This document shows positions 1 to 31,017 of a DNA stretch of 64,000 nucleotides, one piece after another; within the stretch, counting starts at the first letter, position 1; each line of letters starts with the position of its first letter. The translations under genes were made by a program, and so were the position numbers. The stretch is from positions 7,562,916 through 7,626,915 of the forward strand of contig OY811981.1 in NCBI GenBank assembly GCA_963681505.1, read 5' to 3'. Under the pieces are notes generated by a model. That model was given only the letters and a program-made list of their open reading frames with translations, was not told the DNA's origin and did not search any database. Source of the DNA: Eunapius fragilis (taxonomy: Eukaryota; Porifera; Demospongiae; Spongillida; Spongillidae).

Positions 1-728
1 TGTTCCTCCCCAATGTGGGGAAATTTGTACTTGATGTGCCCTGATATTACAAATAGTAACAATATGTCTTATTCTATCAATAGAATGAATCTTACTTTGA
101 ATTCCACTAATGATGTTGGGATTGAGGAGCTGTCGGGATGGTGCTGGTGTGCAATTGCTGCTGGCCATCTCTTGCTCCGTGAAAAAGACACACATCAATG
201 CAAGTGCCAGTTTGGCTGGATTGTCCGACACCACCTCAGCAGCAAGGACCTTCTTTGCATCACCTCCTGGTACCCACACCTTCTTGCCATTAGGATCCCC
301 CAGCCAGCATCCTACATGTGAAACAATAAAAACTTTAAACAACCTGCACATTCCAGTGTGATTGATGTGCATAACCGTTGATCCTACTCTTAGATGCATG
401 GACAGAGTCTATAAAAATAAATAAAACAAATACAAAAGTAGCACACGTAACACTAAATAAACAATGTGTACCTGATCCACATTGTGATGATGATTCAGCG
501 AATGAATCTGTTGATTCCACCTGAGCTCTGCTGATTCGTAGTAAGTAGGTAACCTGACTCTGCAGACATGACACTTGTGCCTTGAGCTGCATGATGTCAA
601 CCTAGATGTATGCAGATACACCTTACTACACAATGTACAATAACACATCAATCATGCATGCAGCATACCTTCATTTCATCCAAAATCAATGCTGATGATT
701 TCTGAAACACTTAACGTGAGTAAATATT

Positions 729-781
<53 letters not shown>

Positions 782-2650
782 CACAAGTACCTTGACCGGA
801 GTTCCTGTATGTCCTTTCAGACCAGTCTGGTGACCCGCAAGAACTTCCACCAAAAACTGGCCATTCTGGGGAGCCCAATACACTGTCCTATATGTATATG
901 ATGAAAGCTTAGTTACATACATTTGAAGATTAATGAGGACCCACATTGTCAGACCAAGACCTCTTCTTTTGCACAGTTCTCTCCTGCATGGAAAGTATTT
1001 TTATATGGTTGTGTGAAGAAGAATGTTTTACAAGTAAACTTTGATTACCAAATCACTGCCTTCATTGTATACCGATGTTGCTGATTCATCCTACATGTAT
1101 ATGGATGGAATAGAGCATAAAACATGGAATACAAAATCATAGCCAATCACTTGTTGAGAAAGTTGATTTAAAACCTGTGCACTTTTTTTCATTGCTTCAT
1201 CCAATCGCGACCTTTTTCGTTTAGCATCCTGTTACAAAAATACTATCCAGATGATTGCATGAAAATCATTACAACTTACTGCTGTGCGTTGAGCCAGACA
1301 GTTTGTTGCTTGACTCACTAAATGAAAGGAATTACACTCAGGGAATAATTTAACCGGTATCGAATCGCATTTTGCGATGTCATTTTGACTAGATGCGAAG
1401 CAACTTTAAAAGTTTGTCGCAGAAAACTGCGATGCGAAGTTTGAATGTTTCAAACATGTACTATAGCTTGCAGACAGCAAATACATGCCACGCGAAGCGT
1501 CTAATATAATATCTATGTGCACGAAGCGAGAAACGATCGATAAGGAGAGCGAACATGTACGATACATGTAATTATTCATTGGTGTGATTGTTTACTCGCG
1601 TGATCACGCAAATGACTGCACAAGTCTAAAGGTGGTCTAAAGTTGTAGTTCCAGGAACAATTTATTTATGCCTTTAATAGGCGTATATAATAGTTTTTAT
1701 GTGTATCTATATACATCTACCATTCATTGTGAACATTCATTGCAATAACATGTACTGCACATTTATGTCATGAATTCTAAATGATCTAAAATTTTATGCT
1801 ACATCACTGCCTACATGTACAGTACTTGAATAGTTAGTATCACACATCTCCACCCCGAAAAAAAAATAGCTATACAACTGAAACAGTTGCTAATCAACTT
1901 AGACTTTGAATAGCAAAATTGCTATGCAATTTTTACAAAGTAAATTATTCCCTGACACTCCTGAACAATATGATACATTTTAAAAGACCAATCAATTACA
2001 ACAAAAAAATTTTTGTACCCAACGCGTTGTTATAATTTATATAAGGCGGTTTTATTTTGCTCACGTGGTACAAATCTACATTTATAGGTCCGTACGTATT
2101 GACATAAATTACGTAACTAAATACAAGACACGCGTGACGTGATGTGATACCTTTACTAGTACTGGTCATGGTTTCCGATCCCTTTTGCTTCACTTGAGAG
2201 TGCTCTTCCTCCTTCTCACTGCCTTCAGAATCCACTTCTGTACATTTGTGCATGCGCGTTATACGCTAGCTATGATCGCACATGTTTCTGGCTTACGGTT
2301 ATCTTCTGCCATTTCCGCCAGTTTGGCTTCCATCTTTTCGCGCCCACCTGTAAAAATTGTCTCTTTAAATCGACAGAGATACACAACCAGCTAGATGCCT
2401 TACCAAGTGCCAAGATCGTTGCTTTGTAAACTTTCCCGTCTGTCCACTTCACTTCGCATACGTCGTTTACTTTCAGGTTGCTTTGGTTCACAATTTTCTT
2501 GGTTGGTACTACGCTAGGGCTTCCATCTTCAAATGTAATGCAAACGTGGGTAGGTGCTGATTGAAGAAGACAAGTGACAACGATGAGTGACATTAACACG
2601 TACGAGGATTACTTACGACCCCAATTCGCACTCAGCAGCCGGAGTGTCAT
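1..2650 (-). CDS. BEND5-like BEN-domain protein, gene A (C-terminus beyond window)
   Basis: Not in one frame; assembled from exons with GT..AG borders. First four exons, in phase: 2650-2617 (start MTLRLLSANWG), 2556-2404 (Tudor-like module with VCEVKWTDGKVYKATILALG), 2347-2297 (short coiled coil EKMEAKLAEMAEDN), 2237-2151 (Ser/Glu-rich). A basic coiled-coil exon with KRKRSR, a likely nuclear signal, lies near 1228-1157. An exon ending at 472 feeds in phase into 311-96, which carries the BEN core (ALMCVFFTEQEMASSN, then LLNPNIISGIQ), and into 40-1 (RHIKYKFPHIGEE), where the window ends. BEN domains are sequence-specific DNA-binding or chromatin modules, so a nuclear DNA-binding role is expected. 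The gene is head to head with the transposase starting at 2740, 89 bp away. Exons between 2151 and 1228 and some coil exons were not resolved. The other possible start is the ATG at 2593, but the 2650 start uses a perfect GTAAGT donor and keeps phase. Confidence 0.8.
735..776. repeat. (TA)n microsatellite
   Basis: About 21 uninterrupted TA dinucleotides in an intron of BEN gene A. The short ORFs with YIYIYI runs on both strands come from this tract and are not genes. Confidence 0.95.
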
Positions 2651-2739
2651 CGCACAACACACACACGCGGTGGTATTCCGAATACTATTGGTTACATCCG
2701 ATTTGCAATAATCACGTGCTATAATTGTCACAAGCAAAA
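2651..2739. promoter_or_regulatory. Divergent promoter between BEN gene A and TNP2 transposase 1
   Basis: This 89-bp gap separates two start codons facing opposite ways, so it must hold both core promoters or 5' leaders. It contains an ATTGG (inverted CCAAT) box near 2689 and an E-box in AATCACGTGCTATAATTG at about 2710-2727. The gap between the equivalent genes at 27941-28185 also contains CACGTGCTA. Promoter function is inferred from position. Confidence 0.5.
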
Positions 2740-5700
2740 ATGAAACGAAGACAATGTTACATTCCAAAGCGAACTAAAACACTCTACAGGAAGATGATGT
2801 GGGGTGGAAAATACGGTACAGTAAATGATATCAGAGGGGAATGCTCAGCTGCAAGTATGGCGAGTTCGCATCAACAATGGACTTTTGAGCGCTCTATTGG
2901 TGAAATGATTGCGTGCCCCTGTAGTGAAGATCTAGAGGAAGATAGCTTCTTAAAGAAAAGACAAGAGCAGCCGCAGGAGGACGACAGCCAAAGCTCAATG
3001 ACGGAATCGGAATCTGAATTTCAATTTAGTGATCAAGACAAGGACAATATGGTGCCTGAAAACGACAGAATAGATGCGTCCAAGGATTGTAGCGAAGAGG
3101 AAGGTAGTTACATGCACTTAATGAGAAGACAGGAACAGACACTAGATGACGACGACCAAAGCTCTATAACGGACTCTGAATCCGAATTTCAATTTAGTGA
3201 AGACAAAGGGGACAATAATGTGCCTGATTCACAGTGTGATAGACCACTGTACCCTGGTACGAATTTGACTATTTATGAATACCATGTAAAAGTATTTCAG
3301 TTTGCTTTAAAGCACAATTTAACAAAGCATGCATATGGAGACCTGTTAAATCTTATTCAAAGTGTTTTACCCTCATCTAACTCAGCCATTACTTCTTTAT
3401 TCAAAGCAAATTCATTATTTAGCAACATTATAGATCCTAACAAAGTCATTCATCATCATAAATATTGCTCATTTTGCCATCATTTGATGATGAAGACGGA
3501 TGATGTGAATGGTAAATGCCCAAATGGTTGTGATGACACAATTGAAGAATTTATGATATGTGATATTGAAATCCAGATGAAATCTTTAATGTCAGGTTAG
3601 TATTATTTTGCTAACATAATAATTGATTGTTACATATTGCTACAATCAAATCGTAGATCCATTTGTATGGAACAGTCTTCAATCACGCTTTAAGAATGAT
3701 GCAAAACTGTCCGATATATTTGGTGGCACTGAGTACAGGAAGTTGATGGAACCTGAACAGTTTTTATCCAAATCGGAGAATATCACCTTTTGCTTGAATA
3801 CTGATGGTGTAGCAGTGTTTAAGTCATCAACTACACAAATTTGGCCTATTTGGCTTCAGATTAATGAACTTCCTCCCAAAATGAGGTATTATTATTATGA
3901 TATTGTTATTTTCAAATCAGCTGATTATTAAATTTTATACATGAATGTTCTCCAAGAAATATTTGATACTAGCAGGTATATGGTTCTCTAAGGATAAGCC
4001 TACAATGGAATCATACATGCACCCTTTAGTAGAAAAAGTGAATGAGTTAGGTATGTTAAATTTGAATTTGTGTTTTTATTCACCAATTTTTCATTTCACA
4101 GGAGTAGATGTTGATACACCTATTGGTAAAAGAAAAGCTCATGCTGCAATAATAGTATGCTCAACAGATCGGCCTGCTTGTGCCTTAGTAGCAAATAATA
4201 TGCAATACAATGGACACTTTGGCTGCACCACTTGTGATAGTTATGGCACCTCAGTTGGTCGCACAGTTTACTGGCCATATGATGATGCATCAAATCTTCG
4301 AACACATCAGTCCATCCTTTCATCTGCCTTAGAAGCTGTACAATGTAGAAAGCCAGTAAGTTCAAACATTGAAATTTTACTACCGATGAGCACAATTTTA
4401 TATCACGTGATCACTATCAGGTGCAAGGAATCAAGGGAGTTCCTATTCTATCTTTGCATCCACCATTTAATCTTGTCAAAGGCATGGCTGTGGATGATCT
4501 ACACTGTGTTGATCTTGGTGTTGTTAAGACTTTGTGTACACATTGGTTTTCTGCAGACAAAAGAGGACAACCATATAGCATTTATGAAAAGGTTATATTA
4601 TTTATGCACATATTATGTGTATGTATATTACATTTCTGTCTACAATAGATTGACCAATGTAATGAGAATCTTCTTAAAATTAAAGTGCCAAATGCAATTA
4701 GAAGGCGTCCTCGCTCTTTGCATTTATTAAAGAAATGGAAAGGTAAGATCCTAATATATCATTAGATGGAGAATTTCTAATGTCCATTTTGATAGGTTCA
4801 GAATTCCGATCATGGTTACTCTATTATTCCATTCCAATATTAAAAGATGTACTACCAGCTCAGTATTTTGATCATTACCTATTGCTAGTAGTCAGTATGT
4901 ACATACTGCGTGGCAATTGTATTACTGAATTTGAGCTGGAGCTTTCAGAGGCTTGCCTAAATCGTTTTTATGTGCAATTTACGGACCTTTATGGTAAACA
5001 ACCTTATATATGCTTTAATTACAAAGTGGATCTCATATTTTTTTATTTGCACAGGAATAACTTCTACCACAATGAATGTTCATCTATTAACCCACTTGCC
5101 ATTTTATGTGAGAGCATGGGGCCCATTGTGGACTACATCATGCTATTGTTTTGAAAGTGCAAATGGTACATTAAGAAAATTCTTCCATGGCACAAGAAAC
5201 ATGTCAAAGCAGGTAACAGTTGAAACCAATATAATCTCAGTACACTTATGCACAATGATATGAATTATCAGTGCATATAATGCTATTCTTTGGAATGCAG
5301 ATTCTGTACTCATTTTCCATGTTTCAATTTCTTTCTCACCTGAAACCAAGTGCAAATAGTGCAAGAAGGTAAGTACAGCCCTACATACTTGTATGAAATA
5401 ACACTTCTTAACATGCCTTATGATTGTTAGTTTGATTGATACAAAAGAAACTGCAGTAACATTGGGTGCAGCACAACAATATACATCACAGGCTGAATTG
5501 GAAGCGATGCATATCAATATAAATGGCCTTACTTTACAGTCATGTGAATATGAGATATATTTGAGAGTGTCATGTAGAAATGAAGTATATCACAGCACTT
5601 CATATACAAGGGCATCAATGCAAAACAGTTACACTGTGATGTACCACAGTGAAGACAGTTGTCAGTTTGGAGAGATTAATTATTTTCTTACAATACGTCA

Positions 5701-7162
5701 CCAGACATTTGGTGAAATCATTAATGCAATCATTACTCCATTTGACACTTCAACAGCTGTTTCACGAGGCACATTTGAATCTGTGCAGAAGTATATTAAT
5801 TCAAAACTAAAGCTCATTCTTCGACATCAAAGCACGAAAATTAGTGTTGATGTTTCTCGTATAATCTGCAAGTGTATTTCTATCAAAATTGGAGAAGATG
5901 AATACTTGGCACCAGTGTTGCCGCGGCCAGCCTTGGCCGTCCGGCAGCCGCCAAAATTAGCCAAATTTTGTGCTGACCGCCATCGGCCGCGGGCCGTCAA
6001 TGTGCCTGGCCGTCTGAGCCGTCAGAGTACGGTGACCGTCAGAATTTTACGGCTGACCGTAAAAAATATTATCCGGTCACTGACGGTCATTTAGCTACTG
6101 CAACCCATGACGTAAAAGATAGCTGTACCGAATTCTAAAAAGCTGAAATTGGATAAACCACCAGATAGCTGTGTGAAAAGTGCATACCATCCATCCGGTC
6201 CGCAAAAGTTTCTTAAAAGTTTCTAAACACAAAGTTGTGGAAACACTTCAAGTTGGCTCGGGCGGCCCAGTTCAACGAATGGAGTTTGTGCGCTCTCTGT
6301 GAACAAGAGAAAAAGAATTACATGGATATCCAGAGTTGATGGTTCTACTTCAAAGATGAGGAAGATGAACGCAAGTTGTATGTATGCCTGGGGACCAGTC
6401 AATATATTCCCAGACTAAGGCTGCTTCGTATTTGTGAATATCGTTCCTCCACTTTTTACTCCAGAGATCTGAAGGAATGCATGCCTAACGGCAGAATCCA
6501 CCAGTTGGCGATAGCAACGATGGCACTAAAGTATTTAGCTGTTCCAGCATCAAGTGCACCTTCTGAACTAGTTTTTTTTTTTCACAATTGATGCTAATCC
6601 TTGACAGAAAGAGGTGGAGAATTGATGCAGACAGAAAGGATTTTGCTTTTACGCTGAAACAAGAACCTTAACTTCAGTGCCTAGTTTCCATCTCGCCTCC
6701 TTAATTCTCATATATATATATATTTATTTATCCGTTAAATCTATTGCATCTCCGAGTCAAGGAATTAGTATAAAGATAAAGCTGCATCATATCTATACAC
6801 ATACCGATGTGCAAATTGCAACGAGCATGCAGTGCATGCATGCGGAGTTATATACGGTGCCAATACAGTAATACACGCATGCAAGTTTGACTTTGACCGA
6901 CTAAGACCGTCTGCCGTGACCGCTAAGCATGAACTGGCGGTTTTTGACGGTCCAAAACTGACCGTGACCGTGCCGGATAAGTTTCAAACGGCCTGCCCGT
7001 GATCGTGACCGTATGGACTGGTCACGGCTATCTCTAGCCGTCGACCGTGACCGCCAGAGTCTATTCCGGTCAACTGGCCGTCCGTGACTTCCTCCAATCG
7101 GTCAACCGCGGCAACACTGCTTGGCACTTTTTGCCAACAATTTTTGTGACATTGTTAATTAA
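2740..7162 (+). pseudogene. TNP2-type (EnSpm/CACTA) transposase 1, split by a hAT-like insertion
   Basis: Ten exons: 2740-3595, 3657-3885, 3947-4050, 4102-4355, 4421-4591, 4649-4742, 4796-4993, 5055-5212, 5301-5368, and 5431-5912 continued at 7128-7162. They join in one frame of 883 codons once the 1.2 kb insert at 5913-7119 is set aside. N-terminus: basic, then acidic with a duplicated SESEFQFS block, then a zinc ribbon (YCSFC, CPNGC). The core has TNP2 family blocks: LNTDGVAVFKSS (probable first catalytic Asp), LILAGIWFSKDKPTM, MQYNGHFGCTTC, MAVDDLHCVDLGVVK and RAWGPLWTTSCYCFE. TNP2 proteins cut and rejoin transposon ends. Two defects: the last exon is broken by the insertion, so the frame now stops at 6094, and the exon 3 acceptor is not AG (3945-3946 reads AT). 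Probably inactive. It differs from transposase 2 in exon number and sequence, so it is an older relative, not a copy. Confidence 0.85.
5913..7119. mobile_element. hAT-like non-autonomous element, 8-bp target duplication
   Basis: A 1207-bp insert with inverted ends CAGTGTTGCCGCGG and CCGCGGCAACACTG, flanked by the exact 8-bp duplication CTTGGCAC (5905-5912 and 7120-7127). CAGTG-type ends with 8-bp duplications are typical of hAT transposons. The subterminal ~200 bp on each side are GC-rich with many short GACCGT/ACGGTC motifs; the middle is AT-rich and has no transposase-like frame. It sits inside the last exon of transposase 1; removing insert plus one duplication restores the original frame and stop. 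Confidence 0.9.
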
Positions 7163-8082
7163 TTATTCTTTGAAGTATATTAACAAATTTGCATAAGATG
7201 AATACATGTACTGTATGTGATGACATGTAGGTGCACGCGCGAAGGTCTACAGTACTTGTGTGGATGTCAGTTGTACCGACTTATTTTAGACCCTCCTTAA
7301 TTATAACTTTAGACCCTCCTTAATTATATGGTGCAGGTAAAAAATTCGTGCCGTATTTACTGCTTCTATCGCATGTTGCTACTTCCACGTCCAGGCCCCG
7401 AAATCCTAGCTCCCGCCCTGCGGGTGCGAATAAATACCAGAGTCATTCCGAAATGCCTGTCAGTCTGTCAATTGGTATACTGTATGGAAACAATTGAGCT
7501 TTACATTAAAGACAATCAACCGCGTACTTCTAGGACGTTATTCTAAGAACCTGTAATTCATTCCAGTTGTATGCGGGCGTATAGGCCTATTAAAACCGCC
7601 CTCTCGTCGCGCCGAGTAACAGTATTATGTAACATCGACGGTACGTAGCTATCAAGTGTAAGCGTTGTCACAGCCCAGATGTGAAATAATACACTGCTGT
7701 CTTCGCACCGCATCATTTGTACCTGCTTTAACAAACCTGGGGTGCCGATCTTATAATCATCTACGACAGGTCCCCAGACCATTTAACGTGTATTAACGCA
7801 TAAACACGCATAAATACACGTTGTAACGCGTTATAACGCCAAAAATTCCACCCGGGTAAGCACTTTGCTTGCAAACTGATGGTTTTGCATGTACAATTTT
7901 CCTTAGGGTGGAAGTGATCAGATTTATACTGACCAAAAGAACTTTCAATATACATACGCATATATATATATAATTATATGGGACAGTTTCCGCGAAAACT
8001 TCCTATGTTTTATAACATTATAAAACTATAGTGTTATAACGTTTGAATCGCTATATCTTCCGAACGCTAAAGGCTATCGACA
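7163..8082. other. Non-coding stretch with direct repeat and hairpin
   Basis: No gene recognised. It should contain the right end of the first TNP2/BEN element, but no clear terminus was found. Visible structure: two copies of TTTAGACCCTCCTTAATTAT near 7285-7329; a hairpin at about 7786-7823 with arms AACGTGTATT and AATACACGTT; and a ~100-bp segment at 7860-7962 that recurs at 32948-33036. Confidence 0.6.
7860..7962 (+). repeat. ~95-bp direct repeat, copy 1
   Basis: Contains TGTACAATTTTCCTTAGGGT followed by GGAAGTGATCAGATTTATA. A second copy in the same orientation lies at 32948-33036. Each copy lies just to the left of one arm of the 3.8 kb inverted duplication, although the arms are in opposite orientation. 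Confidence 0.8.
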
Positions 8083-17756: not shown

Positions 17757-20200
17757 ATTTCAAAAGAGCTGCCCAGCTTTGTCCCACAAGGCGATATTGC
17801 AATGCACGTGCAAATGCTAAAGATGGCTATTATATAAGCATGTATAATAATGATAAATTCTTTTTTTTTTTTTATATCAATAGACTCTATACTTGCGAAT
17901 AATGTTCATTGAATTGGTATTGTGCAACGCACACCGTTGAATATAATAAATAATCAATTGCGTATGTATATACTAGTACAATACAATTGCAAGAGAAAGA
18001 GACTCAGGGAAATGTATTCAGAATGTTTTAACATTGAGCTCGCGCGATTGATCGAGTGTACATTGTATATATAATGTCCTATACTGCACCCTTACATGTA
18101 CACACATATATAATTATAATATATGGATGTGTTTCAACAACGCTGTATTGTTAATTATATAAGCGCGTCGAATGAAGTATTGATTCTATAAATGATTTTA
18201 AAATCCTTTGTAGTGTGATTGAAAATTCAAATTGTGTTCCATTATAACTATCATCCTTAGTATATATATATATATATAATTTATGTCGGCAAAGTGCATT
18301 ATGTAGGATATAGGGGTACTAAGTAGACTATAGCTATTTGTTTCATTTCTCCTATACTGTAACGCGTTATTAATCTGTCAAAGTACATGTATGTATCGTT
18401 AGCACTGATTTTGTGTACATTTATATGATTGTGAACTTGCATGTTATATATAGTCTGCTATAACTGAATCAAGTTTATAATGCTAAATAGACTGATTATT
18501 TAATAGGATCAGTAACTAATCAACTGCATGTTTTTTACTTCTACATGTATATGTAAGTAATGTATGATATCGGTTTGCTGGTGTGTCATTTATCACTCCA
18601 GGATAGGGTAGATCTAAAAATTGTATGAAATTCTTTCCATTGCAACACATGGTATAATCCTCTCAGTTGTTACAATGTCAAATCATTTGCAGCTCTTACA
18701 GGCTAGGCTGGTGGCATTGCTTAGATTATTACTCACATGCATTTCATATTAGTTTACAAACCCTTGCAAATATTAAATTGAATCCTTACATTCCTTCAAT
18801 ATGATGTATTAAATGTGCAGCATTATTGTTATTTATTTTTTGCATTGTCTTCTACATGTAATGTAATTGTGTATGTACTCTTGAGTTTTTAATAATATGA
18901 ATGCATAATACCATACTTATACACATGAGCACACATAGCTAGCCTATAGTTAATGCAAAACACATCTGGTGAGGATGGCAGTGGCATTGGCCCTCACTAG
19001 ATGGAGGTTGACTCTGACATATATGTCTGCAAGTACAGTCAACTTGGGTCTGCATGACTGCATGTAATAGTGGCGTGCCGTGTTGCCAGCACTGTTCTGA
19101 CCAACACTAGTACACATGTACATGGATTGAGCTTGAGTAGTGAGGTATAAAGATGGAGGGGCAGAAAGGGGGTGGGGGTGGGGCACACTTTTTTTTTTTT
19201 GGGTTACTGCATGTGTATATCAAAGTGATAAGATAATATGTATCAGTTTTATTGTCCGAGCTTCCATTTTGTCAGAAAAATGTAAAAGTTTTTGAGTTTT
19301 ATAGTCTCATTCCAGATCAGAATAGGAACCTTTCTCATGAATGTGCTCATAGAATCCAGATATCTTCCATTTATGGCTTGTTGACATGTCTGGACATAGG
19401 TTTGCAGCTGCTTGCATCTTAAGGTCTGACCTTGAGGTTACCGAAAGCATGAATATGATTAGGTATGTGTGCGTGTGTAATGTACATGGTAACTGTTATG
19501 AGAGATTGAAATAGCCATAGGATGGAACAGGAATAAACTACGCATATACGTTGGATTGTTATGTCTTTTTAGATATCTCTTCTAAGCCACACTTCACGCT
19601 GCTAAGAAGATCCAAGGTCTGCATAAGATATTCTGATACTCCCTACGACTTAAAAACACCCCCTCCACATAAATAAGTGTCCATATAGACTGCATGTGTG
19701 AGTCCGTTTCTGCGTTCAATCCGTGGATCCCTCTCTCCCCCATCCATACCCTTCCACCAAGAGAATCACACGAATTATCTCAAGTTCTGGCTGGGAAAGG
19801 GTCCCAACAGGGGCAAGCTAACAGCGTTCTTCATACGCCATGGCTGGGTTAATGTGCACTGTACATCTTATACCATTAATAGCATGTTGCTGGTGCCATG
19901 CATGTCAACAGCCCAGTAATATGTGTGCAATAAAATATTTTATAAGCCTTGAAATTGATTCATTAAAAAAGTACTACAAGAATGCAGAACATATGTTTAA
20001 AATCAGTTTTACATGTAGTTTGGAAGTCTTGATCCCTTCATCCTTACACACATTCAGATCCAACCTGTCATGATGATTGACCAAAGCACTTGTTGCACAC
20101 AATCACATACACAAGTACACATCACACATAACACAATAAGTGCACATTTCGACTGAGGCACAAGCATCATAGTAGTAGGTAAGGAGAGGTATAGGGTGTA
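17757..20200. other. Non-coding, no gene recognised
   Basis: AT-rich sequence with a poly-T run near 17860, a TA run near 18260-18276, a T run near 19190 and many TACATGTA-like palindromes. The E-box CACGTG at about 17805, 50 bp upstream of BEN gene B, may belong to its promoter. Short frames here show no family features. Confidence 0.6.
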
Positions 20201-20214
20201 GTGGTAGGTAGAAG

Positions 20215-20460
20215 GGTAATAGTACATGTAGGTAGGGGAAGGGAGAGAGGGGAAGGGGAAGGGAGAGAGGGGAAGGGGAAGGGAGAGAGGGGAAGGGGAA
20301 GGGAGAGAGGGGAAGGGGAAGGGAGAGAGGGGAAGGGGAAGGGAGAGAGGGGAAGGGGAAGGGAGAGAGGGGAAGGGGAAGGGAGAGAGGGGAAGGGGAA
20401 GGGAGAGAGGGGAAGGGGAAGGGAGAGAGGGGAAGGGGAAGGGAGAGAGGGGAAGGGGAA
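20215..20460 (+). repeat. 20-bp tandem repeat GGGAGAGAGGGGAAGGGGAA
   Basis: About 12 nearly perfect copies of the 20-bp purine unit. Pure R/Y strand asymmetry; the matching frames ([24 protein letters not shown]) are artefacts. Confidence 0.97.
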
Positions 20461-22590
20461 GAGAGGGAGGGAGGGGGAGGGAAGGGGAGGGGAAGGGAGG
20501 GGAGGGGAGGGGAAGAGAGGGGAGGGGAGGGGAAGGGAAGGGAGCAAGGGGGAGGGAGGTATGAGGGAGAAGGAAGTAAGGGAGGGGAGGAGAAGAAAAG
20601 GTGGGGAAGGAAAGAAGGGTGGAAGGAGGATACAGAGGGAGCGTAGGGAGGAAGGGATAGGGAGAGGGGAGGGGAGGGAAGGGAGGGGAGGGGAGGGGAA
20701 GGGAGGGGAGGGGAGGGGAGAGGAGGGGAGGGGAGGGGAAGGGAGGGGTGGGGAGGGGAAGAGAGGGGGAGGGGAGGGGAAGGGGTATATGTGTATACTT
20801 TTACACACATGCTGGCTGGTTTATTACCATGCTATGACCTCACATAAGAAAATAAATTATACACCAAATCGATTTCATCACTAGGATGGATTTGGGAAGG
20901 GAGAAGAGAGAAAGGACGGAGAAGGGAGTAGGGAGGAGAGAAGGGAAAGGGAGGGGAGGAGAAAAGGGGGGGAGGGGAGGGAGGGAGGGGGAGGGGAGGG
21001 AGGGGGAGGGAGGGGAGGGAGGGAGGGAGGGAGGGGAGGGGAGGGAGGGAGGGAGGGGAGGGAGGGAGGGGGAGGGGAGGGAGGGGGATGGGAGGGAGGG
21101 AGGGGGAGGAGGGAGGTAGCTGGTTTACTATCACGCTACAACCTCACATAATAAAATTATACACCAAATCTACATGTAGTACTACTAGGGATTTTATCAC
21201 TAGCGATGGATTTGGGAAGGGATGAGGAGGTAGAAGAGAGAAAGGAGGGAGAAGGGAGAAGGGAAGGGATAAGAGAGGGGTGTAGGGAAAGGGAGGGGAG
21301 AAGGGAGGAGGAGGTAGAAGAGAGAAGGGAGGGGAGAAGGAAAAGGGAGGGGAGAAGAGGAGGAGGGAGAAGGGGATGGGGAGGAGAGAGAAGGGAAGGG
21401 ATAAGGGAGGGGAAAGAGAGGGAAGAAGGGAGGGGAGAAGAGAGATGGGAGAAAGGGAGAGAGGAGAGGCGAAGGGAGGGAGTAGGGAGGGGATAAGAGA
21501 GGGGAGGGGAGGGGAAGGGAAGCGAGGGGAAGGGGAATGGAGGGAGGTATGAGGGAAAGGAAGTAAGGAAGAGAGGGGGAGGGGAGGGGAAGAGAGGAGG
21601 GGAAGGGGTATACGTGTATACTTTTACACACATGCTGGCTGCTTTATTACCATGCTATGACCTCACATAATAACATTATACACCAAATCTACATGTAGTA
21701 CTACTAGGGATTTCATCACTAGTGATGGATTTGGGAAGGGACGAGGAGGTAGAAGAGAGAAAGGGAGGGGAGGAGGGAGAAGGGAGGTGGGAGAAGGGGA
21801 GGAGGGAGAAGGGAGGAGGGAGAAGGGGAGGAGGGAGAAGGGAGGAGGGAGAAGGGAGGAGGGAGAAGGGAGGAGGGAGGAGGGAGAAGGGGAGGAGGGA
21901 GAAGGGGAGGAGGGAGAAGGGGAGGAGGGAGAAGGGGAGGAGGGAGAAGGGGAGGAGGGAGAAGGGGAGGAGGTAGAAGAGAGAAAGGAGGGGAAAAGGG
22001 AGGGGAGGAGGGAGAAGGGGAGGAGGGAGAAGGGGAGGAGGGAGAAGGGGAGGAGGGAGAAGGGGAGGAGGGAGAAGGGACGAGGGAAAAGGGGAGGAGG
22101 GAGAAGGGGAGGAGGGAGATGGGGAGGAGGGAGAAGGGGAGGAGGGAGAAGGGGAGGAGGTAGAAGAGAGAAAGGAGGGGAAAAGGGAGGGGAGGAGGGA
22201 GAAGGGGAGAAGGGGAGGAGGGATAAGGGGAGGAGGGAGAAGGGGAGGAGGGAGAAGGGGAGGAGGGGAGGAGGGAGAAGGGGAGGAGGGATAGGGGAGA
22301 AGGGGAGAAGGGAGGAGGGAGAAGGGGAGGAGGGAAAAGGGGAGGAGGGAAAAGGGGAGGAGGGAGAAGGGGAGGAGGGAGAAGGGGAGGAGGGAGAAGG
22401 GCGATGGGGAGGAGAGAGAAGGGAAGGATAAGGAAGGGGAAAAGGAGGGGGAAAGAGGGAAGAAGGGAGGGAGAAGGGAGATGGGAGAAAGGGAGACAGG
22501 AGAGGTGAAGGGAGGGAGAAGGGTGGGGAGAAGGAAGAGAGAAGGGATAAGGGAGGGGAGAAGAGAGGGGAGGGGAGGGAGAGGATTTCA
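20461..22590 (+). repeat. Purine-rich (GGGAGA/GGAGGA) array with higher-order spacer
   Basis: About 2.1 kb of A/G-only blocks built from GGGAGAAGGGGAGGA-like units. Three copies of a ~110-bp non-purine spacer (ACACATGCTGGCTG.. through GGATTTGGGAAGGGA) at about 20790-20900, 21112-21222 and 21615-21737 show a higher-order repeat. Candidate for triplex or G-quadruplex formation. No gene. Confidence 0.95.
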
Positions 22591-22936
22591 AAGTGATAAG
22601 GGGAAGGAAGGGTGGAATAATTGATATTCAAATAGAAGCTCACCTTAAATTTTCCTCTATTCAAAGATCCAATGATAGAGTCTGAATTACAATGGAAAGT
22701 ATGCTTAATATCACACCCCTCCCACCTACATGTACACACATTTACATACAGGTACCACATCTACCTATACACTACGCACTTCCACCTGTACACCAGTACC
22801 ATCCCACCTACACATTGGTTAAACAACACCACTCCTACCTTTTATAAATAGTTTCTTATTAGAGCATACATGTATGTAAATACCAACTGCCACCTTTGCA
22901 GACATATATACAACCCCAGTGAAAAATTCTTACGTA

Positions 22937-23135
22937 TCTTGGCCAGGATCCTGGCCAAGATTGCAAGATTTATCCAAGATGCAACCCAAGATACCAAGGT
23001 GTAACTCAGGATAGCCAAGATGCCAAGCCGCAACCCAAGATGGCAAGATACAAACCAAGATGAGTAGGCCAAGATGGCAAGATATAATCAAGTAGCCAAG
23101 ATGTCAAGATGCAATCTATGATGTCAAGATGATAA
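22937..23135. promoter_or_regulatory. Left subterminal repeats (CCAAGAT clusters)
   Basis: About a dozen CCAAGAT or CAAGATG motifs, first as near-palindromes (CTTGGCCAGGATCCTGGCCAAG) and then as single motifs spaced about 15-20 bp. They match the motif type at the right end of the same element. Likely binding sites for an element-encoded protein; inferred. Confidence 0.6.
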
Positions 23136-23321
23136 ATATATAATAAGATAGCTCAGTATTGTATCCATTTTAATAAACAGCATATGTAAATATGATTTTC
23201 ATAGCAAGATGTGCATAAATTATTGTTAGGTATATGCTAATGATAGATAATATTAATGTTCATCAGCACATATATATTACAACTGAAAATGACATTTTGC
23301 ACACAATACATGTGTAAGATA

Positions 23322-26300
23322 TTAATGATGTTCATATGTATTGGGCTGAAATATAATTACATCAGTAGGTGAGTATTTGATAGGTACATGAACACATTTT
23401 CTTAAAATTGAAATAACTGGAACAGCCAGAACATTATTTGTGAGTGATATTTTCTTAACTACAACAAAATACGAATTCAGTTGCATATTTCTGAAGGACT
23501 TGAGGTCATGTATTGTTGGTGACACATTGTCCAGGATTCCTTGAGATACCCGTTCGTAAACATCAATTATTGCTATATGATCTGCATTCTTCAATACACA
23601 AAATTTTCTTATTGAACCCAACATCAATGTGTCATGATACATGAATTCACAAACCGAACTGTCACGTGCCAATTTGGTCTTTTTAGCTTGATATGCAGTT
23701 CCATTTATCATATATGATAAATAAGTAGGTAGAACCTTGTCAGAAACCCTGTAATCTGAATTGGATAAAATATTTGCTTCATCTGTTAAAAGCTGTGTGT
23801 TTCTGCACTTTCCCAGGGGTCCATTATTGATATTTACACTTTGATAAAAAAATGCAACAGTACGTGCACTTTCCACAGGTAATGCATTTATGTGAGCTGT
23901 CATTGAGTAGTTCATTGTGATGCCACGAATCAAGCTGGGTATAAAATTCCTACACCCATGCCTATGTTGCTTTATGTACCCATTCATATTTTCAAAACCA
24001 AAGCAGGAGTATGCCCACAGAGGTCCTAACATTTGCACAAATCTGGAAAGATGAACAACACTGTGCAAGTTTGGTGACAGCATCTCTTCAGGATACAGTT
24101 GTGGCACAAGATTGTAAAATAGTACCAACATTTCATCAGCAGCTCTGATGTCTTCAGAAGTTATACGTGTTCCAAGTAAAATGTGCATAGCCGTAACTAA
24201 TAGAGCAAAGTGGTGAACATAGTCAGGAGGCAAAATTTTGGTAAGAATTGGAAGGCTATAATACAACAACCAAACTTTATACTCTGATGCCTTCCAATAG
24301 GCTTGAGCTGTTCCAGTTTCTCTCGGGGATCGCCTAAACTCGTGTGGTGGTTTAATTCTAAGCAGATACTTGTTTATGATGTTGACTACTTTTCCAAGAT
24401 AGAATCTAAGTTCAGCATACTTTGGATTGATCCAACAACATAAAAATGCTTTCACCACACCTTCTAGAATAGCATGCATATAGTCAATAGGTATATGGTA
24501 TATTGAAATGAAAGGTGCCAATAGAGATATTCCTTTTACTCCAAACACAGGCCTTCCCAACATAATTGCTTTTTGCGCCCACACAGCTATTTCAAAAGGT
24601 GTGCGAATTTTGTGTGGTTCAATTGGAAGGTAGAGGTGTCGGTGACACTTATGTATACCCCTGTCTGTACAATAAGGACATCCATAATAACCGTTGTATT
24701 GTGTTATATTTAATGCTGTCACTTTAGCTGGAAAATCAAAAACTCCTGCTATAAGTTTAGCTTTTACAACCTTTGTGCCATCAGGGGTTGATATTTCTAT
24801 ACCCTTTGTTTCAAGCTGTTGTATTTTTGAAAGTGTTGGTGGAAGAAGGATATCCATCGGTGGTTTGCATGGTCCAAGCCATAAAGCACCTACCATAGTA
24901 TTTTCTGCATTCATTCGAGTTAATGGTGGAAGTGATGTTGTGATGAGAAGCAAAGGCCAAAGGGTCATACCTGACGAAAGTATTGGTGAAAGACAATGCA
25001 TTAATTATTATGATGAACAGCAAACCCTTCATACTGATTTGTGATCATAAATTAAATCTTAATGTGTGTGTGTAGATGTATAGAATGAGGAACCTTTGTT
25101 GAAAAATTAAATTGTGCCAAGTTTATATTATTTCAACATATCTACTTACCCTTGTACAAATGAACACTAACCTGATGACTTGAAAACAGGAACTCCATCG
25201 CAACACATAATGAGTCCTGTATGCTCTGGCACTGAAAGAAACTGCCCTTCTTTCCGAAGTGCTGCTGCAATACTTCCATCCGAAATGTCACCAATGATGC
25301 CTTCATTAGTATTGTGAGTTTTATAGAAGTACTGAGATATTTCATTCCACTTTTCTGCATGAAATTAAACACACTGCCAAGTATTTTAAAACTTACATGC
25401 TTGCTTACCTGAATAAATTATTCTCAAATGCCTTTCAAACGGAAGAACTGCAAAGTAACATGTCTGTGCTTTGTTAACCCTACAATGCTGCTCTGAACAC
25501 TTATTTAAACCTTCCAAATTTTGCATACATAGTGAACAATACTTCTGGATGGTATAATCATATTCACACATGAATTGCTTCCATACCTGGTAAGGTGTTT
25601 TTGCACATTGATTGATATCTGAACAGTGGATTGATACCAATTCTAACAATTTACTGGTAGCACATTTGCTTAAGTGGTTTGTAACTGAAAAATAGTTGCA
25701 TGCTAGCCAGCTAGCTTCCTTACTAAGTGGTGCACCTAAATATAGGGCACTTCCACTTATACTACTTCTGCAGACATCATCTTCCATAATCTCAAACTGT
25801 TCATTGTCACTGTCATCACTATCATCCTCTATGCCCTTCCTCTGTTCACCTACATCATCACTGTCACCCTCTATACCATTTCTCTGTTCATTATCACTGA
25901 CATCATCATCTTCTATGCTACCCTCACTTACATCATTACTATCTCCTTCTACACCCTTGCTCTGTTCATTATCACTGACATCATCATCATCCTCTGTGCT
26001 GTCTTCGTTCTGTTCATTGTGACCAACATCATTACTATCACCCTCAACACCCTCATCATCACCATCATCCTCTATGCACTTACTCTGTTCATTGTCACTG
26101 ACATAATAACTATTATTGCTCTGTTCACTGACATCATCACTATTACCTTTATCTTTACTGGTGAAATGTTCACTATCATTGCTGCCCCCTTGACCATCTC
26201 CATTATCGTTATAGTATTCACCTTCCTGTTTGTCCCCATATCCAAGTCTGCTATTTTCAATGCAGCCTGCAATACTTGAAGAAGCCGTACTTTCCATTAA

Positions 26301-27940
26301 AGATTCATCATGACCTTCCAAATCTGGAATGAATGAAAGCTAATGAACACATAAAAAATGACTATAAGTAACAATTTAAATAAAAGCCATGGCACAGAGG
26401 AAGGTGAAAATGCATTCCTCCCAGCTCCATGTAGAGATATCATCAACAACATTTGTAGATGCAATATGGGAGCACACAAAGCGTGCACAACATAACTATA
26501 TTTGGTGGGCATACTTACATGCTGCTCCTCTTACGGTTGATAAACTACTTGCATCCACATTTGCATGCAGCTCTGAAAAATAGATATCAGTTCATAATCA
26601 ATGTTAGATTACATACTAAAACAAGCATACTAGTCTTAGCATTCCACCAACGAAGTGTTCGTCCTGGAACAGGGACTTTTGGGTCATGGCAATACTTCCT
26701 CCGAACACCTTTGCTTGCTACAGTGCAGCACATGAATGGGTATGCTCATACCATGCACATTGATACACATGCAGTTAAATATGCATGGGAGAAAATAGAA
26801 AAAGTATCATTTGATTAATAACGTACCCTCATGCTCTTGGATATACATCGGAATAGGAATGCTGGGATTCCAAAGGTATTCTCGATACCTCTTTCGAACA
26901 GGCACACCATCTATATGTAAGTAAGTTGAGTTGCAATGCAAAGGTATACACAACATAAAAAGGTTCCCAAGATCAATGAAAACATTATTAACTGTATAAA
27001 CTTTAAGTTTAATTGCTACGAAATATTGTACTTATGTGTGAAGAGAAAAGACCAAAAATGAACTGGAAGCCAAGAATATTATATGATTAATTATATAGGG
27101 GAAGTGACAACTTAACACATTTAATTTGTTCGCACTGATTGTCCAGGTGCTAAATTACGCAGGCCCATAGGCAGCATTAGAAAAGTGGTTAGGTTGGTAA
27201 TAGGACTGAAAGAAATAGCAGCTAGGGGGGCTGGGGGAGTGCTGTAAGCACCCCCAGCGAGGTCTGGGGCGGAACCTCAGAAGCTAACGCATTTCCGCGA
27301 ATCTGAGAGGCAGTTTTGGCAGCAAAATTGCTATGTAGCAATGAAATCTTCCCCTGCATGATGTAATGAATCAAAGACCCGAACAACACTCTACCTCTAT
27401 ATATATATATTGATGTTTACTAAATAATACACAAAACGCTCATTTAGGGAAGTTGTACTTAATGAGGTGATTAGGGTTTTCTCCAACATCTAAAAGAATC
27501 TCAGATGACGATTGAAAGTTATAGCGTCGATTGAACAGTCATCCATGAGGCGCTCACATTGACTACAATACTGAATACTAAAATCTATAACGATATAAAT
27601 GTGACTGGTTTTTAAAATTAGAAACAAAAAATAGCAGCGGATTGCAATTTCATATACATGTAGCTATTCAATGGCCAGATCTAGAACTAAACAACCATGA
27701 AAACTGTTTAGCTGGTAACCTGTGAATATAATTATTATATAATTATCCATACCGTGACCGGGTATAGTATACACACAATTGTATATCGTTTTCAGCCGTT
27801 TCTGTCGGGGTGGACCTTATATTAAGCTTAGCTTGGGCAAAAAGTGGTCAGGCTATAGCCCGAATGCCTGACCGGCTGCCACGGCCTGTTACGTACGATA
27901 ACACATCACCTTCACTTTCATCTGCTGCAGCCGGATCCAT
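23322..27940 (-). CDS. TNP2-type (EnSpm/CACTA) transposase 2, intact
   Basis: Six exons in phase: 27940-27910 (MDPAAADESE), 26910-26827, 26572-26519, 26323-25409, 25354-25172 and 24970-23322, giving 971 codons plus stop. Domains in order: basic N-terminus (VRKRYREYLWNP); long acidic low-complexity region with ~20-residue repeats containing SDNEQ and EGDSND; zinc ribbon (YCSLC .. CSEQHC); TNP2 core with CCDGVPVFKSS (probable first catalytic Asp), ALWLGPCKPPMDILL, TQYNGYYGCPYC, HAILEGVVKAF and MLGPLWAYSCFGFENMNG; then a C-terminal tail. It would cleave and join the ends of its element in the nucleus. It is divergent to BEN gene C with starts 245 bp apart, inside the same terminal repeats. No stop, frameshift or bad splice site was found, so the copy may be young or active. 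Intron 1 (about 1 kb, 27909-26911) holds no gene. Confidence 0.9.
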
Positions 27941-28185
27941 GAACAAGTAGGTATGCCGATCAGAATGCAGTGGAATCCTCAGGCGCTGTTACTTTTGATG
28001 GGCCGTAAAATAATATATTTAGAGCACACACCTTAATTTAATTACTGTAGCGTCACGTGCTAAAAGAGTTGGTCTCTTTTGTTCAACGGCGGGCCACTTT
28101 GTTTTCAGACGGGGCGGGCGCACTCTTCAATTTACGTGCTTTCTAGCGTGCACGTGCTATTGCAGGAGAACTTTGCGCACTGGCT
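27941..28185. promoter_or_regulatory. Divergent promoter between TNP2 transposase 2 and BEN gene C
   Basis: The 245 bp between two opposite start codons contain CACGTGCTA twice (about 28055 and 28151); the same motif lies in the gap of the first pair (2651-2739). Bidirectional promoter function is inferred from gene orientation. Confidence 0.5.
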
Positions 28186-30337
28186 ATGCCTCCTAAGAGA
28201 CCAGCGCGATTACCGAAAAGGTACGACGACCTTGTTAGCACCCATGTGGAAGAAGCCACAAAGAGTGAGTTCCGGCAGCTTACAAAAATGTGGCAATGTG
28301 ATGCATATATGAGGCATGGTTTTTGTAGTTTAACCAAAAATTAAAAAAAAAACTGCCTGCATGGGATTCATGCATGCATGTGTAGCGCGGGAATAGCGTA
28401 AAAGCCATATATATATATATATATATATACGATTTAGTTCTATGGCCAGTTTTGTATACACTTGTCTATTTTCGACACAGCGCTAGCATTTGCCATTGTC
28501 GCGGGGGGCCGGTGTTTGGGAAGGATGATAGACTAGAAACTCTTACCTGTGGGTGAGAGTGCGTCCTCTGAAGACTTATAAACAGTGGTAGGCGTTATTT
28601 ACGTACGCTGAACTACCTTTTCAGAGTGGTGCAATGTGTTGTGCATTGAAGATAATCGAACGTACAGATGCCTGTCGAGTACGCTATCTATTGAAGATAA
28701 AGGGGTTGTTGAAGAAGACGATCTGATACCAGGAGCAGAGATGGTGTGGAAAAACAAAGGGAAACTGTATACAGTAGTTCTACAGGAGGTGGATGGTAAG
28801 CATATGGACTAATTTCTTGCACTGACCTGTACAGGTAACCGTTTAAAAGAATTTTCAAGCATGAAAAAAAAAGCCTTATTATAATTTTTATCGGTAACAC
28901 AAAATCAATTTTTGCAATTACTGCATGCATTAAGTTGTCCTAGATTTGTCCAGGTTGATTACAAAAAAATTTGGTGGCTGTGATTGTAAAGATTTTTGGG
29001 ACCTTTTTATGTGGATCAATGCTGCGATATCATACCTATATATGAAATTATGAATCATTTTGAAATTGGATATTCTGAATACATGTTCCCTAATAAATGG
29101 TTCACATATATATATACAATATATGTTTGCATGGTATAATGCCTTCTTATCCAAAAGGGAAGCCTAAGCCTGCTAATAAGCATTTGTTTAGTGAAGATTC
29201 TGATTCAGCAGAGGAACATGCTAAGGAAAAGGTACTCATTATGCAATTAAATTTATTTTTCATAATGTGGTGATGTTTATTTTCTTTTTCTTGTAGACAT
29301 CACAGCCACAAGCAGAAATTCATAGTCAGCAGGTAAGGAGACACATGTAGTATTTTTAATCTGATATTTTTAAAATCTGTGTTCAGAGATCAGTTGATCA
29401 AGATCAGAGCACCTTAGCAGCTACTAAATGTGATGTAAGATAAATTAAATCACATTTTTGGTAATCCACATGTGAATCATGACATTGACAATGACTGGCG
29501 GTTAGAGCAAACAATGGGAAAACATAACCAGCTGTCTGAAGGTGAGTATTTTGCTTAATTTAATTTCATTCATAAATGTTTTTCCACAGCAAAGTATTGA
29601 TGTACTCAATACAACTGTAGTGGCATTGAATAGTTCCGTGCTCACATTGATCACTATTATGGGAAGGACAGACCGTGACCATCATCAATTGATGGAAAAA
29701 GTCAGTGACGGTGGCGTCCCAAATACAGAAGAAGCAGGCAAAGTTGCTATTGCAGATGTGAAAAGGCCCCAGATAACATCACCACCACCTGAAAGTGAAG
29801 AGAAATTTATAATGGTATTATCTGTTTCTATAATTTTTGAGACATAACTTAATAAATGTTTATTTCAATTTTAGGAAAATGGTGTTGATATAAGAAACAT
29901 CAAGGCTCATGACATATTCAAATATGCACTAGTCCTAATGGATGCTCTCTTCACAGAAGAAGATATGTCAACTTCATGCTTTTTTCAGTCAGAGAGGGGA
30001 ACAGCAAGTGACAAACCCCCGTTAGAACCTTCAAAAGTGAAACTCCTTGAAGGTAAATTAAATGTTTTTTTTTTACTACCACCGTTTCTGTTGTGCTAAT
30101 TTCATTGCTGTACACCTTTTAAATACAAGTGGTGATATGATGATGCAATTGATTTATATATGTACAGAATGTCTGTATAGGAGGTATGGAAAGAATGCAG
30201 TTGAAGAGAACCTTAATGCCATAAGACAGAGGTGCAACCAAAAGTGCCGAGATAAAAAAAAAGAAAAAGAAAAAGAAAGCAAAAGGCATTTGTTGACGAA
30301 GGGAGGTAGTGGTACTTCCTCACAAACCATGTCCTAA
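28186..30337 (+). CDS. BEND5-like BEN-domain protein, gene C (transposon-borne, intact)
   Basis: Nine exons in phase: 28186-28264, 28625-28795, 29158-29231, 29297-29332, 29387-29434, 29506-29541, 29590-29814, 29875-30052 and 30168-30337, 338 codons plus stop. Start MPPKRPARLPKRY (basic). Tudor-like module at ~residues 28-85 (VLCIEDNRTYRCLSS .. GAEMVWKNKGKLYTVVLQE), Ser/Glu/Gln-rich linker, a coil-like segment (SIDVLNTTVVALNSSVLTLI), then the BEN domain at ~225-320 (YALVLMDALFTEEDMSTSCF, LEPSKVKLLEECLYRRYG, LNAIRQRCNQKCRDKKKE) and a Lys/Glu-rich tail. Exon 6 is the least certain. Lies within the EnSpm-like element 22915-30865 and shares a divergent promoter with its transposase. Predicted to bind DNA, possibly the subterminal repeats; no direct evidence. 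Confidence 0.88.
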
Positions 30338-30385
30338 CTTGCTACCCAGCAACTCTGTTTACTCTGCAGCTCATCAAACTGTTTA

Positions 30386-30545
30386 CCCAGCAGCTCATCA
30401 ACTGTTTAGCCAGCTCATCAACTGTTTAGCCAGCTCATCAACTGTTTACCCTGCAGCTCATCAACTGTTTAGCCAGCTCATCAACTGTTTAGCCAGCTCA
30501 TCAACTGTTTACCAGGTCATCAAGTGTTACCCATGTTTATCCAGC
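30386..30545 (+). repeat. 20-bp minisatellite CAGCTCATCAACTGTTTAGC
   Basis: About eight copies of a 20-bp unit with small variations, just after the BEN gene C stop codon; probably in its 3' untranslated region. Confidence 0.95.
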
Positions 30546-30649
30546 TCATACACTGTACATGTATATCATTTTGATTGTAGCTATATAAATGTAAACGTTA
30601 TATGCATGTACTTGAAGGCAAGAATGCACTGCAAGATGAAACCAGGATT

Positions 30650-30860
30650 GAAGCCAAGAATCTTGGCCAAGAGACAAGGATTTTCCGGCAAAGATCTGGG
30701 CAGGATCTTGGGCCTCTTGGCCAAGGTTAACCCCCCCAAGACCCCAGGATCTTGGCCAAGAGAGTGCCCCCAAGATCCCAAGATCTTGGAGCCTCTTGGC
30801 CAAGATTGCTGGCCCAAGATCCCAAGATTACGACGCAAGATCTTGGCCAAGATGTTTCCG
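30650..30860. promoter_or_regulatory. Right subterminal repeats (ATCTTGGCCAAGA clusters)
   Basis: At least ten motifs of ATCTTGG or CCAAGAT, several as full palindromes CTTGGCCAAG. They mirror the cluster at 22937-23135 and end at the right terminus (30865). Confidence 0.65.
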
Positions 30861-31017
30861 CTGGGAACGGTAAAAAAGCTATAGTGCAAACTGTTACAGT
30901 AAAGATAAATAACACCGCTACATCATAGCAATCAATACAGAGAACGATACGATTACAGCCAGGTGCGCGTTTATTTAAATTAACCCACTTCATGTACCAC
31001 AAAAAGTAGTTAATACC

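Follow-up and report, generated by a model that had tools for sequence, protein, structure and literature searches.

A CCC-terminus CACTA-type transposon of the sponge Eunapius fragilis pairs a TNP2 transposase gene with a divergent gene for a BEN-domain protein

Which protein accompanies a TNP2-type transposase in an animal transposon, and could it hold the place that TNPA holds in the plant element En/Spm? The question is raised by a 64,000-nucleotide stretch of the Eunapius fragilis genome (GCA_963681505.1, contig OY811981.1, positions 7,562,916 to 7,626,915 of the forward strand; hereafter, the window, in whose coordinates positions are given). An original prediction, made from the letters alone, placed an intact two-gene transposon at 22915-30865 and proposed that it combines a TNP2 transposase with a BEND5-like DNA-binding protein in a TNPA-like role. 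Our analyses favor, with a probability of about 65%, the reading that this is an autonomous DNA transposon of the CCC-terminus branch of animal CACTA/EnSpm elements (i.e., the TRC elements), in which the BEN protein would be an end-binding and regulatory partner of the transposase and a counterpart of TNPA. The binding, the need for the protein, and its regulatory activity are predicted from sequence.

The element measures 7,951 bp and carries two divergent genes between a left terminus CCCAG (22915-22919, plus strand), with which all 11 full-length copies described below begin, and a right terminus CTGGG (30861-30865, plus strand), which was placed by the ends of the copies and by an end search. 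It is flanked by the target-site duplication AAC on the left (22912-22914) and on the right (30866-30868), and the 3-bp AAC flanks and CCCAG termini of the original prediction thus hold at both borders (22912-22919 and 30861-30868). The outer inverted repeat is short (perfect over 5 bp, with 13 of the first 20 positions matching), and the ends read CCCAG/CTGGG rather than the CACTA/CACTG that marks plant CACTA elements in the strict sense. An intergenic stretch (27941-28185) separates the two start codons and is presumably a two-way promoter. Tandem repeats of about 20 bp (AACTGTTTAGCCAGCTCATC; 30336-30540) separate the BEN gene from the right end, and their copy number seems to vary among copies, in which they are seen as alignment gaps. 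Adjoining the left side of the element is a long, GA-rich stretch of low complexity (20200-22600) that yields long artificial open frames.

We searched the genome (219 Mb, 24 contigs) with 501 bp from the left end of the element and 366 bp from its right end, and both recur in it. Among 17 fetched regions, 11 (the window's own included) contain a full-length copy (element base 1 to 7951), and the remaining 6 contain truncated, broken, or distant copies. All 11 full-length copies start CCCAGTGAAAAATT and finish CTGGG; they are 7.9 to 9.0 kb long, and the ten others are 98.5 to 99.8% identical to the window copy outside gaps. A perfect 3-bp target duplication surrounds 10 of the 11, and the eleventh (L022) shows an overlapping TGTG instead. 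The BEN gene lies within the borders of every full-length copy, with frames broken in some; according to our gene models, both frames are open in 3 of the 11 copies (including that of the window), and 8 are broken in at least one gene. We also joined the flanks of nine insertions and searched the genome across the junction, scoring 40 of 1,493 candidates. Related empty sites were found for five of the nine (L019, L020, L021, L023, and L024), with the best match per site 95 to 99% identical over the junction and gap-free or nearly so. The other four sites (one with a shortened query) had no junction match among the 40 of 1,493 candidates scored, and they say little because so few were scored. 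The expected further copies, with 3-bp duplications (10/11) and empty sites (5/9), were therefore found, and the claim of an intact, multicopy two-gene transposon was borne out by 11 full-length copies that share ends and genes. The copies and empty sites indicate that the element of the window and its relatives (family A) moved recently and constitute a cut-and-paste transposon.

The transposase gene (2,916 nt; 971 amino acids) was modeled on the minus strand with six exons: exon 1 with the ATG (27910-27940), exon 2 (26827-26910), exon 3 (26519-26572), exon 4 with acidic repeats and a Cys-rich part (25409-26323), exon 5 (25172-25354), and exon 6 with the stop codon (23322-24970). All 12 introns of the two genes in the window copy are GT-AG. 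The whole protein matches Pfam Transposase_21 (E = 1.4e-12; 47.7 bits, with the cutoff at 28.6), which upholds the predicted TNP2 transposase at the predicted length. The D in CCDGV, the D in PIDYMHA, and the E in GFENMNG fit a DDE triad; in an alignment of 20 proteins, whose first sequence starts past the first D, neither the second D nor the E varies. A protein search (7,998 candidates scored) returned at least 111 relatives, those named being from Amphiura, Clytia, Nothobranchius, Ixodes, Acanthochromis, Toxotes, and Branchiostoma. A phmmer search of the family A transposase against the PDB gave weak kinase matches only. A search of NCBIfam gave no real match.

The second gene, on the plus strand, was modeled with eight exons: exon 1 with the ATG (28186-28264), exon 2 encoding a conserved N-terminal domain (28625-28795), exons 3 to 6 (29158-29231, 29297-29332, 29387-29434, and 29590-29814), exon 7 at the start of the BEN domain (29875-30052), and exon 8 with the end of the BEN domain and the stop codon (30168-30337). 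The original prediction had given 2,916 and 1,017 nt for the two genes; the former length stood, and the latter was replaced by 981 nt (326 amino acids; 36 nt shorter). Pfam BEN was matched above the cutoff (23.2 bits) by the corresponding proteins of two other families introduced below, B (30.1 bits) and C (28.5 bits). A six-sequence BEN profile matched BANP crystal structures (E = 4.7e-4) and BEND6 (E = 0.042). A structure model of a relative from Ephydatia muelleri (mean predicted local distance difference test score, 58; ten-residue means in the BEN part, 56 to 87) gave 32 Foldseek matches, of which the top 16 were BEN domains (best E = 0.012, probability 1.00) and none reached an E value of 0.001 or below. 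By profile and by Foldseek alike, the best-matching solved BEN domains were those of BANP, followed by BEND6 or Insv; no BEND5 structure was among these matches, and no BEND5 sequence was compared. The N-terminal region of the family A protein, where a Tudor fold would be expected if the partner were Tudor-like, had no Pfam match, and phmmer found no match to the whole protein in the PDB. On the basis of the Pfam matches in families B and C, the BANP profile match, and the predicted fold, the second protein is assigned a true BEN domain, in agreement with the original prediction of a BEN-domain product.

Both ends of the element are crowded with a short repeat. The left 300 bp contain ATCTTG/CAAGAT 15 times, with 14 occurrences in the left array (22936-23130) and another at 23205; the right array (30632-30853) comprises 13 occurrences, several as TCTTGGCCAAGA. 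Altogether, the outer 700 bp of family A contain 28 occurrences, compared with 4 for the inner 7,251 bp, which confirms the predicted subterminal repeats at both ends; Markov-resampled ends contained a mean of 0.66 and a maximum of 4 in 200 resamplings. The ends of other families carry repeats of their own: AAGATCTT occurs 11 times at the ends of family B and 7 times at those of family C, with none inside, and the end repeats are AAGTCTTG in family E and CATGCATG in family F. Ten-base palindromes exceed the resampled maximum at the ends of families A (8 versus 5), B (8 versus 6), C (8 versus 5), and F (9 versus 7). The BEN domain of BANP prefers TCTCG (PMC10206803) and has been crystallized on palindromic DNA (PMC11472053). 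The TCTCG of BANP and the TCTTG of the element ends differ by one base, and the BEN protein of the element most likely reads TCTTG half-sites, as judged from this resemblance in sequence.

Four further families (B, C, E, and F) were bounded by aligning two copies each. Family B (6,737 bp) has two identical copies on separate contigs, both with 2-bp duplications; family C has copies of 7,178 and 7,481 bp, both with 3-bp duplications; family E has copies of 4,722 and 5,723 bp with ends CCCTAG, a 2-bp duplication surrounding one and none the other; and family F (6,233 bp) has two identical copies, both with 2-bp duplications. The ends of the five bounded families are CCCAG, CCCTAG, or CCCAAG (i.e., a CCC core at both ends). 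Families B, C, E, and F all carry the transposase on one strand and the BEN gene divergent from it, both inside CCC-type ends. Their transposases are 34 to 54% identical to that of family A, and pairwise identities among the five families are 30 to 54% for the transposase and 28 to 55% for the BEN domain. The original prediction had named borders that exclude the BEN gene, or the lack of any other copy, as contrary evidence; neither was seen, since the 11 copies and these four families all include the BEN gene within their borders. The flanks of one family B copy (L034) place it inside a tandem array, whose adjacent units keep the uninterrupted site GATCCTCTTGGCCC.

Genome-wide, a divergent BEN match was found within 12 kb at 50 of 84 transposase loci, against a chance expectation of about 0.0034 per locus, and a BEN match in another arrangement was found at 4 of 84. 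With the family A BEN query alone, 41 of 84 loci were paired; since family E copies scored as BEN-less with this first query, the pairing counts are floors. The tallies are partial (103 of 568 transposase candidates and 123 of 228 and 150 of 178 BEN candidates scored) and do not count additional exons of a listed locus; one transposase row left out in this way (C8:9212150-9212395) may be a separate BEN-less locus, which would make the count 50 of 85. The transposase and BEN trees agree on a deep split (families A, B, and C versus E and F).

The window itself contains a second divergent pair (1-2650, minus strand; 2740-5912, plus strand). Its TNP2 gene is more distant (tblastn E = 5e-19 to the family A transposase), and its BEN-like gene is a weak match (E = 0.003) that runs off the left edge of the window. 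Because this TNP2 gene is absent from the rows of the transposase search, the family counts are incomplete. Near its end, this second transposase gene is interrupted by an insertion (5913-7119, within 5905-7127) that has the ends CAGTGTTGCCGCGG and the 8-bp duplication CTTGGCAC; the pattern looks hAT-like.

Searches with the BEN protein returned entries of the freshwater sponge E. muelleri only (5 in one search, and 10 in another that scored the 7,993 candidates with the most words in common), where the prefix Em was taken as this species, which four entries name. Alignment scans of viral contigs (A4 and A1) and of genome contigs (A4) confirmed no relatives. Two E. muelleri proteins (P0119 and P0120) have a middle part in common with P0002, which carries a BEN domain; they themselves lack the domain and start MSSSKRP, slightly like the BEN proteins of the families. 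Both contain repeats of the type LGQDLGQDT, as expected of translated CCAAGATCTTGG arrays, and both extend to AQEFFAG, where P0120 ends and P0119 continues. Since AQEFFAG is what CAAGAATTTTTTGCTGGG would be expected to encode after one further codon, the common part appears, from the protein letters, to stop at a CTGGG end.

According to the reading that we favor, the TNP2 (Transposase_21) protein would cut and join the CCCAG ends, leaving 3-bp duplications (2-bp duplications in some families), and the divergently transcribed BEN protein would bind the TCTTG half-sites that crowd both ends, coat them, and gather them for the transposase, as TNPA does in En/Spm; it would probably also regulate transcription of the element. 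Related elements in the genome retain both genes together, and the BEN protein is therefore likely to be a functional component of the transposition machinery. It is also conceivable, although we judge it rather unlikely, that cutting and synapsis do not require the BEN protein, which acts instead as a regulator (i.e., a repressor, an insulator, or an anti-silencing factor) at its own promoter and at the ends. Known BEN proteins are mostly regulators of chromatin and transcription, the start region that the two divergent genes have in common is short, and TNPA additionally regulates its own promoter (PMC1636069). The repeats, however, are found at the extremities on both sides (in family A, 28 within the outer 700 bp versus 4 inside), which counts against a pure regulator because one bound at the promoter would not need both arrays.

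An improbable alternative is that one element captured the BEN gene from its host and carries it as a passenger without a function in transposition. Many animal host proteins contain BEN domains, and 4 of the 11 copies have a BEN frame that is shifted or breaks off early (others have a broken transposase). Yet the same divergent pair recurs in five families and at 50 of 84 loci, and retention in frame over divergence that leaves 30 to 54% identity in the transposase and 28 to 55% in the BEN domain is not expected of a passenger, which would require separate captures for each family; the capture scenario is thus largely refuted. It is least credible of all, to the point of being negligible, that the two genes are unrelated neighbors, placed side by side through chance or a nested insertion. 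Nested insertions do occur, for instance in the second transposase gene of the window, but both genes are present in all 11 full-length copies, the empty sites lack both together, and the pairing is far above chance. We rejected both the passenger and the chance-neighbor explanations on the copy, empty-site, and multifamily data.

Several observations weigh against the partnership that we propose. The family A protein scores 0.1 bit below the Pfam BEN cutoff (23.1 versus 23.2 bits), and the score of the E. muelleri relative is 15.9 bits; the ends of family E show no palindrome enrichment (2 versus a resampled maximum of 4); and 34 of the 84 transposase loci have no divergent BEN match within 12 kb. 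The transposase and BEN trees disagree within families A to C, and the correlation between transposase and BEN distances (r = 0.43) was reached by 20 of 120 relabelings; the disagreement may reflect an exchange of modules among families, or else the roughly 90 residues may carry too little signal. Finally, a distant TNP2 family (L043, at 491-4853, and L044), which has a 1,002-codon open frame and is 30% identical in the transposase search, gave no BEN match better than E = 0.64, and its second open frame on the other strand matches DUF4616, not BEN. The BEN partner therefore marks a branch rather than every TNP2 element, and other branches may have other partner proteins.

En/Spm makes 3-bp duplications, as family A does here, and to our knowledge TNPA has no BEN domain. 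The element has CCCAG ends, unlike the CACTA ends of maize En/Spm. The two systems have in common a TNP2-type transposase, a second protein that binds DNA (presumed here), and short ends with arrays of subterminal repeats; in En/Spm, TNPA is the protein that binds these repeats, and TNPA and TNPD are both needed (PMC2613891, PMC1636069). The proteins of En/Spm are splice forms of one unit, whereas here they are products of separate, divergent genes. Also close are the animal TRC elements of the CACTA superfamily described by DeMarco et al. in 2006 (SmTRC1 and elements of Aedes and Tribolium; PMC1636069), which have a Transposase_21 transposase, CCC ends (CCCAGTCAAC in Aedes and CCCTAGTAGC in Tribolium), 2-bp duplications like those of families B and F, and a second, nontransposase protein for which a TNPA-like role was proposed. 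The second proteins of SmTRC1 are described there as products of alternative splicing without detectable relatives, unlike the BEN-domain protein here, which comes from its own divergent gene; the 3-bp duplications of family A also differ from those of the TRC elements. Judged by transposase, ends, and duplications, the sponge elements fit the animal TRC group, and they supply a recognizable candidate for its second protein.

The BEN fold is shared with BANP and BEND6 (PDB 8yzt, 7yuk, and 7yul), which are host chromatin factors, unlike the protein here, whose gene lies inside a transposon and encodes another conserved N-terminal domain. A bacterial parallel is DBD1 of the Tn3-family TnpA, which has a BEN-like fold and DNA-binding surface and is key to recognition of the transposon ends (PMC9579193); it sits within a bacterial transposase, unlike the separate protein of this eukaryotic CACTA-type element, and the likeness is one of fold only. 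Fungal EnSpm and Plavaka elements bearing TET/JBP genes likewise have CACTA-related transposases with an additional gene and 2- to 3-bp duplications, but the extra gene encodes a dioxygenase, the ends are CAC, CATCA, or TGT, and the word BEN is absent from the text of that paper (PMC12730594). Elsewhere, the zebrafish DUF4806 has been called a BEN subtype (PMC11075544), and the mention of BEN in PMC5704228 is confined, within the text covered, to the reference list. Among open-access papers, covered in part and with Repbase outside the scope, we found no description of a BEN gene in a CACTA element. The superfamily is already known, and the BEN-domain partner is what is new, as far as this literature extends.

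More tentatively, these elements could form a distinct animal CACTA branch with a BEN end-binding subunit, whose BEN domain would change with the repeats of each family (TCTTG-type in families A, B, C, and E; CATGCATG in family F). Exchange of genes between elements and hosts, in either direction, could then have contributed some of the BEN chromatin factors of animals, an idea for which Tn3 offers a parallel. The E. fragilis elements suggest what the second protein of animal CACTA elements may be; no relatives of it could be detected when these elements were described in 2006. They add a candidate TNPA-like partner that is based on a chromatin domain of animals and whose role is directly testable, and their families of near-identical copies may allow DNA recognition by BEN domains to be read against known repeat arrays.

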